Source: Cyathus striatus (Eukaryota; Basidiomycota; Agaricomycetes; Agaricales; Nidulariaceae). Taken from it: a stretch of DNA of 64,000 nt. This document shows positions 42,740-43,768 of the stretch, piece by piece; positions within the stretch are counted from its first letter, which is position 1, and the number at the start of each line of letters is the position of its first letter. The stretch is taken from assembly GCA_025738555.1 (NCBI GenBank), contig JAOVFP010000009.1:744001-808000 (forward strand), in the 5' to 3' direction. The notes beneath the pieces were generated by a model, which saw only the letters and a list, made by a program, of their open reading frames with translations, was not told where the DNA came from and did no database searches. The position numbers were made by a program, and so were the translations under genes.

Positions 42740-43130
42740 TCATTTAGAGGCAAAGGCAATTGGGTGGCGGTGGGACACTGTTTTGCCACTAGGGAGGGTA
42801 ACATCTTGTCGCTGGCAAAGAACACCTGCAAAAGCATCAACACAGCCATCAGTGGTTACAATGAAATGGGATCTGTCATACCAGGGGGCTACACAAACGG
42901 GCTCAGAGATTAGTTTTGCCTTAAGGGCCAAGAAGGCTTGTGTATGAACTTGTGTCCAAATGGGGGAGAGTTTGAAGGCACACATGGCCTTCTGGTAGGC
43001 CTGTTTTTTGGTACCTGCAGGGACATCGACTAGACAGAGTAGGTCTCTAAGTGGTTTTTCGATAGTGGCATAGCCCTGGATGAGATCTCGAAAGTAACCT
43101 GTAAGACCAAGAAAGCCTTCAAGATGAGAG
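42740..43130 (-). pseudogene. Gypsy RNase H region
   Basis: Begins right after the TRIM insertion with HLEGFLGLTGYFRDLIQGYA (RT connection), then LRDLL, AFLALKAKLISEPV, FIVTTDGCVDAFAGVLCQ (RNase H first Asp) and HPIAFASK. Removing the TRIM joins this piece cleanly to WPIPHDAS of the RT side. Confidence 0.75.
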
Positions 43131-43348
43131 TGTTGGATTGGCAAGGTTGACAGCCTTGACTGGGTTATGGGGGTGTATAATATTGGAGCACTCCTGCCAT
43201 GGTGACGAGCCTGGTAGCCCACTCAACTGGTTAAGTACCTGTTCTTGCTTGTGTATAGGCAAGGGCTGGTAGCTCAGTTGGAAGAGTGCCTAGTCATGAG
43301 TACGGGTGGTCACAGGTTCAATCCCTGTTCAGTCCAATAGTTTTAACA
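43131..43348 (+). repeat. TRIM 5' LTR (218 bp)
   Basis: TG...CA ends. Contains TATA-like GTATAATATTGG near 43176 and the tRNA-like unit near the 3' end. Confidence 0.85.
43263..43336 (+). other. tRNA-like pol III unit in TRIM 5' LTR
   Basis: 74 nt. A perfect A box (TAGCTCAGTTGG, from position 8) and a B box (GGTTCAATCCC) are present. The acceptor stem GGGCTGG pairs with TCAGTCC by hand (two G-U pairs), the D stem is GCTC/GAGT, and the T stem ACAGG/CCTGT is perfect. The anticodon stem pairs poorly and the loop has C, not U, at position 33, so a working tRNA is unlikely. A T4 run at 43341-43344 is a minimal pol III terminator, four bases after the 3' end. Confidence 0.8.
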
Positions 43349-43435
43349 GGTTATGGGCCCCGAGTGCGGTGTTTGTATCTGTGTAGACTTCCTCCCTTGG
43401 TGATACGGTGACGAGCCTGTCTCCTTGTGGGGGTG

Positions 43436-43653
43436 TGTTGGATTGGCAAGGTTGACAGCCTTGACTGGGTTATGGGGGTGTATAATATTGGAGCACTCCT
43501 GCCATGGTGATGAGCCTGGTAGCCCACTCAACTGGTTAAGTACCTGTTCTTGCTTGTGTATAGGCAAGGGCTGGTAGCTCAGTTGGAAGAGTGCCTAGTC
43601 ATGAGTACGGGTGGTCACAGGTTCAATCCCTGTTCAGTCCAATAGTTTTAACA
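43436..43653 (+). repeat. TRIM 3' LTR (218 bp)
   Basis: Same length as the 5' LTR with about one difference (GACGAGC versus GATGAGC). Followed by the second GAGAG. Confidence 0.85.
43568..43641 (+). other. tRNA-like pol III unit in TRIM 3' LTR
   Basis: Identical to the unit at 43263-43336, again followed by TTTT at 43646-43649. Confidence 0.8.
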
Positions 43654-43768
43654 GAGAGGCATCATGTGGGATTGGCCAATTGACAATAGCTGCAAGCTTG
43701 GATGGGTCAGGAGAGACACCATTGGGTCCGACAAGTGCACCACCAAATATTGTTTCTGTCATGAACAC

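Follow-up and report, generated by a model that had tools for sequence, protein, structure and literature searches.

A putative Helenus-type TRIM in Cyathus striatus and Copia hybrids of a sister family

A stretch of 64,000 nucleotides of the Cyathus striatus genome (contig JAOVFP010000009.1, positions 744,001 to 808,000; hereafter the window) contains, at window positions 43131–43653, a 523-bp element that is real, young and multicopy. Its best explanation, to which we give a probability of roughly 85%, is a young copy of a terminal-repeat retrotransposon in miniature (TRIM) of the Helenus type, that is, a non-coding long terminal repeat (LTR) retrotransposon in which a decayed tRNA gene within the LTR is kept as a promoter and for which a Copia-type element would act as helper. 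The family to which it belongs was named H1. At the level of sequence, its anatomy, the existence of a family, the 5-bp target site duplications (TSDs) and a primer site for half of the initiator-Met tRNA can all be read directly. H2, a second Helenus-type family of this genome, was newly found here, and it forms hybrids with a coding element, Copia-A. The helper of TRIMs whose LTRs carry a gene of the RNA polymerase III (pol III) type is an open point, and the occurrence of a Helenus family, a probable Copia helper and hybrids of the two in one genome makes the helper link testable.

Anatomy of the window element

The element consists of two 218-bp LTRs with TG...CA ends and an 87-bp interior. 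These features had been reported in a preliminary description of this DNA, together with a primer binding site (PBS), a polypurine tract (PPT) and a GAGAG duplication, and the coordinates bear them out. All features other than the TSD are given on the forward strand. The 5' LTR (TGTTGG...TTAACA) occupies 43131–43348 and is among the full-length genomic matches, of which there are at least 48; the 3' LTR occupies 43436–43653 and differs from it by a single C/T mismatch at LTR position 76. The left and right copies of the TSD GAGAG lie at 43126–43130 and 43654–43658. The interior (43349–43435) is non-coding. It opens with GGTTATGGGCCCCG, directly abutting the LTR, where the 14-nt PBS was placed (43349–43362), and it closes with TGTGGGGGTG (43426–43435), which adjoins the 3' LTR and by its sequence is a putative PPT.

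A tRNA-like 74-mer was detected in each LTR by both ARAGORN and Rfam, at 43263–43336 and 43568–43641, the former being called tRNA-Ser(tga) with 41.7 bits to RF00005; the earlier proposal, a TRIM whose LTRs each contain a tRNA-like unit, is upheld. Within the 74-mer, TAGCTCAGTTGG (43270–43281 in the 5' LTR, starting at 43575 in the 3' LTR) and GGTTCAATCCC (43315–43325, and starting at 43620) correspond to what we take to be the A-box and B-box consensus sequences, respectively. TTTT starts at the fifth base 3' of the 74-mer in both LTRs (43341–43344 and 43646–43649) and is a possible pol III terminator. RF00005 was the only Rfam family to reach its gathering score in the window, and no 5S rRNA was detected there. 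The insertion site had been called clean, which is accurate as regards the exact TSD but not the surroundings, since the element is embedded in a degraded Gypsy-type pol region, with RVT_1 and RT_RNaseH_2 flanking it on either side.

H1 as a genomic family

The genome searched comprised 107 Mb in 24 contigs. A hydrolase encoded in the window has 81% identity to a Cyathus striatus protein, which fits a bird's-nest fungus as host. For the H1 LTR query, 40 of the 108 candidates were scored, and the resulting 48 full-length matches, a minimum that includes the window copy, corresponded to 40 loci, all of which were fetched and inspected. A 24-base pattern for the LTR 3' end, with up to three mismatches allowed, gave 86 sites compared with none for the reversed-pattern control, and 76 insertions remained once neighbours closer than 1 kb had been merged. 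The search of the host genome suggested in the preliminary description returned a multicopy family. Exact 5-bp TSDs were present at 39 of the 40 inspected loci, the exception being L031, and the ends of the family are integrase-like. The 40 loci were made up of 33 solo LTRs (32 with a TSD), six two-LTR copies and one three-LTR array. In the six two-LTR copies, the paired LTRs differed by 0–4 bases in 218, which indicates that H1 copies are young, as had been claimed for the window element.

The H1 interior was found at nine genomic places (nine of nine candidates scored), eight of them flanked by full H1 LTRs, whereas the ninth (L055) keeps only a short 5' LTR stump. Since the interior was found just nine times, most H1 insertions must have lost it. 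No autonomous element with H1 LTRs was seen in a search that was not exhaustive. Two of the solo LTRs, L020 (C3:5551658) and L021 (C3:5532027), are copies of one H1 LTR that lie about 20 kb from each other in opposite orientations and share TSD and near flanks; they are probably one insertion that was duplicated within an inverted segmental duplication.

Primer binding site

The reverse complement of the H1 PBS was located in two Met(cat) tRNA genes (L062 and L066), at nt 26–39 in L062, and two further genomic sites have the same 20-mer. The ARAGORN label of the matching gene is Met(cat) only; we take it to be the initiator tRNA from its A1-U72 pair and the AUCG in its T loop. H1 would accordingly be primed by the 5' half of the initiator-Met tRNA, ending at nt 39. 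The 74-mer of the LTR, for which a priming role had been entertained, was ruled out as the primer, the PBS matching the Met(cat) tRNA instead. The interiors of H1 and H2 are alike only over their first 16 nt, and Copia-A, of whose interior the first and last 300 bases were compared, has the same 16 nt. A separate repeat family (L053, L054, L058, L060, L063 and others) has the same Met-tRNA primer site, with a GCCTG extension, and a different LTR end.

H2, Copia-A and their hybrids

H2 elements (L086, L087, L088, L092 and L093) are approximately 585 bp long, with 239-bp LTRs and a 107-bp interior, and part of the LTR was called tRNA-Ser(act) in the copies scanned. TSDs were found in four of the five intact copies. 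Copia-A has LTRs of approximately 325–342 bp, with TSDs at three of the five copies inspected. Its representative L082 has an open reading frame (ORF) of 1429 aa for gag-pol in which, on scanning in four pieces, Retrotran_gag_2, Pol_BBD, rve and RVT_2 were detected. The reverse transcriptase (RT) piece of L082 is identical to that of L083 at 234 of 245 residues and to that of L084 at 238 of 245, while L085 is by its LTR a more distant subtype (73–77% identity to the other three). Sequence comparison of the Copia-A and H2 LTRs gave no match.

H2 interiors were found at 12 places (12 of 12 candidates scored), comprising six between two H2 LTRs (one damaged), five hybrids and one further locus, L096. 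In the hybrids, a Copia-A LTR is followed by an H2 interior and an H2 LTR, and the junction is at the PBS in all five. Three hybrids have both ends intact (L079, L080 and L094), and two of these show exact TSDs, namely GTTAA (L080) and CCCCT (L094). The hybrid LTR of L080 is 98.8% identical to the LTR of L083. The opposite arrangement may be present at L097/L103, where an H2-type LTR (L097, 702–933) directly abuts a primer site and interior of the Copia-A type. This interior is split by a Copia-A LTR that has a TSD (TATTA) of its own, and after it comes a coding stretch with 91% identity to a portion of the L082 ORF. With the 3' end unread, the locus is a possible reciprocal hybrid in which an H2-type LTR precedes Copia coding sequence.

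Because normal reverse transcription yields equal LTRs, a unit whose two LTRs differ and which has a TSD suggests that the plus-strand strong-stop DNA of Copia-A landed on the H2 minus strand, and such a transfer at the shared primer site would require both elements within one particle. The anatomy of the hybrids and the co-location described below suggest that H2 and Copia-A are co-packaged. Copia-A is probably the helper of H2, since TSDs flank hybrids whose junction is at the primer site, and given the shared 16-nt primer site, it is a plausible helper of H1. For the broader model, in which RNAs of Helenus and Copia enter the same particles and LTRs are swapped in both directions by plus-strand transfer at the common initiator-Met site, we would put the odds a little above even. 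If it is correct, LTR swaps could let a coding element lose, or a TRIM gain, a pol III-type LTR; the swaps would also identify the helper directly.

Co-location was assessed within 50 kb of 32 Copia-A primer sites (39 sites minus seven of H2 type); the resulting zones cover 1.7% of the genome. Of the H2 insertions examined, 33 of 35 fell in these zones (40 of 67 candidates scored), compared with 21 of the 76 H1 insertions and nine of 117 other Copia RT (RVT_2) hits. H2 and Copia-A have targeting or survival in common, a feature in which H1 takes part only partly. The Copia-A primer sites were distributed over 14 of the 24 contigs, mostly as a single compact cluster per contig; it is possible that the Copia-A/H2 clusters mark centromeres, although this is not claimed.

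Several of the observations weigh against a Copia-type helper read from the hybrids. L079 has intact ends and no TSD, L081 and L095 are missing their 5' ends, and the H2 interior of L096 is 11 bases short at its start, with no H2 or Copia-A LTR directly upstream. The first 300 interior bases of L097/L103 are just 71% identical to those of L084, in addition to the unread 3' end. For H1 itself, none of the nine interiors has an adjoining Copia-A LTR, and the family, unlike H2, is mostly dispersed: no Copia-A primer site lies within 50 kb of 55 of its 76 insertions. With co-location only partial and no H1 hybrid, the helper of H1 stays inferred. As a separate observation, L096 adjoins the apparent LTR end of some other LTR family.

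The hybrids could alternatively have arisen by chromosomal recombination or gene conversion rather than reverse transcription, in which case they would say nothing about the helper. The missing TSD of L079 and the rearranged state of L081 and L095 would fit such an origin, and the proximity of Copia-A and H2 copies to each other would favour ectopic exchange. Against this, L080 and L094 have complete ends and exact 5-bp TSDs, for which the probability of two in three arising by chance is about 3e-6 if equal base use is assumed, and five of five junctions fall at the PBS, the very point of plus-strand transfer. We regard recombination as an unlikely source of the hybrids.

The tRNA-like part of the LTR

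Direct reading confirmed the preliminary observation that the anticodon arm of the H1 74-mer does not fold; the arm is broken. The predicted fold of the 74-mer as a whole was no better than that of shuffled sequences (z −0.21; 78 of 200 shuffles equal or better), while that of the H2 75-mer gave z −1.54. With a broken anticodon arm and a fold at shuffle level, a decoding role of the H1 74-mer appears unlikely. Across the 48 H1 LTRs, the number of changed cells was 0 in the A box and 2 in the B box, compared with 31 in the D/anticodon stretch. The T4 run was unchanged in the same 48 copies and intact at 85 of the 86 pattern sites. At the sensitivity of the comparison, the sequence common to the LTRs of H1 and H2 was limited to the A-box and B-box stretches. 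The constancy of the boxes and the restriction of the H1/H2 likeness to them favour a promoter role for the tRNA-like part.

Under the Helenus-type reading, the A and B boxes would drive a pol III transcript starting close to the 74-mer of the 5' LTR. This transcript would have to pass the T4 run of the 5' LTR and would then end at that of the 3' LTR, and the H1 RNA would be packaged, reverse-transcribed and integrated by the Copia-type helper. The preliminary description spoke of a complete pol III unit, which is acceptable for H1 in so far as the A box, B box and T4 run are present by sequence only, but does not extend to H2, which has no T4 run in its LTR or interior (L087). This lack means that the terminator is not common to the two families, and it counts against a full pol III unit, as does the TATA-like TATATATAA located 34–26 bp upstream of the H2 tRNA-like part, which is usable by either polymerase. 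The scarcity of A-box variation carries little weight, the copies being young and related. The use of pol III by H1 and H2 is unproven.

Transcription of a Helenus-like TRIM by RNA polymerase II, with the tRNA-like part being a relic or serving RNA structure or packaging, would accommodate the missing T4 run and the TATA-like box of H2 as well as the shuffle-level fold of the H1 74-mer. It leaves aside that the H1 and H2 LTRs detectably share nothing beyond the A- and B-box stretches and that these are near-invariant in 48 copies, and the same boxes are reported, in the available part of the Helenus paper, to be conserved across that group (PMC10886601). We consider this alternative improbable. 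A tRNA-derived short interspersed element (SINE) or SINE dimer, mobilised by a long interspersed element through target-primed reverse transcription, would share with H1 a tRNA-like sequence containing A and B boxes and the abundance of copies with just one unit (33 of the 40 loci inspected), but is hardly credible and was refuted by the LTR termini and 5-bp TSDs. The single units consist of the whole 218-bp LTR bounded by TG...CA, have no 3' leftover or tail, and are flanked by TSDs of fixed rather than variable length (39 of 40 loci); in two-unit copies, a PBS and a PPT-like stretch separate the units. The preliminary description had named a SINE dimer and a one-off duplication as the competing possibilities, and both fail: the element is multicopy, and at 39 of 40 loci the copies end at LTR termini flanked by 5-bp TSDs.

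For the origin of the tRNA-like part, 21 genes were compared, 20 of them drawn from the 61 tRNA places and one a Met(cat) gene; among these, the closest to the 74-mer and a possible parent was tRNA-Ile(aat), identical at 53 of 65 aligned positions. LTRs of this type get called as tRNA genes, which calls for caution among annotators.

Relation to known systems

The presence of a tRNA in the LTR of a TRIM had been presented as though it were novel; such elements, including ones from Agaricomycetes, have already been published as Helenus (the TRIMp3 group; Kojima 2024, PMC10886601, cited here from part of its text). By its anatomy, H1 appears to be a new family of this type, the likeness being judged from the published description. 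According to the sections available, Helenus elements share with H1 a short non-coding LTR structure, a tRNA-like LTR part with A and B boxes, a PBS and a PPT, the 5-bp TSDs of the fungal members, a PBS on the initiator-Met anticodon stem-loop, solo LTRs and tandem copies; tRNA-Ser-TGA occurs among the false tRNA calls (PMC10886601). The same sections give the tRNA anticodon loop, chiefly that of initiator-Met, as the dominant priming site in fungal Helenus, connect fungal Helenus with Copia through primer sites and through an internal match that joins elements from two different rust species, and call pol III transcription of Helenus unproven (PMC10886601). The Cyathus lineage is absent from Table 1 of that paper, and its available text does not describe Copia hybrids within the same genome (PMC10886601). 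At the level of listings, a search of the open-licence literature found no Helenus/Copia hybrid and no follow-up on Helenus.

Half-tRNA priming is also known from coding elements. Ty5 of yeast is primed by an initiator-Met tRNA that has been cleaved within its anticodon loop, and copia of Drosophila has a 'half-tRNA' primer, in the portion of the source consulted (PMC5371799). In contrast to H1, both are autonomous coding elements. To our knowledge, their LTRs carry no tRNA gene. Chimeric copies exist for the rice pair Dasheng and RIRE2. The LTRs of these two are mutually similar, according to the part of PMC1940013 available, whereas the Copia-A and H2 LTRs gave no match.

Cassandra of plants resembles H1 in being a TRIM with a pol III gene in its LTR and in forming tandem LTR arrays. 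Its guest is a 5S rRNA rather than a tRNA, its PBS (TGGTATCAGAGC) is of another type, and its partners are called unknown, as stated in the accessible text of PMC7215508. An H1 array of the Cassandra kind was observed at L047 (615–1441), in which three LTRs alternate with two interiors (LTR-interior-LTR-interior-LTR) within a single TSD, TATCT.
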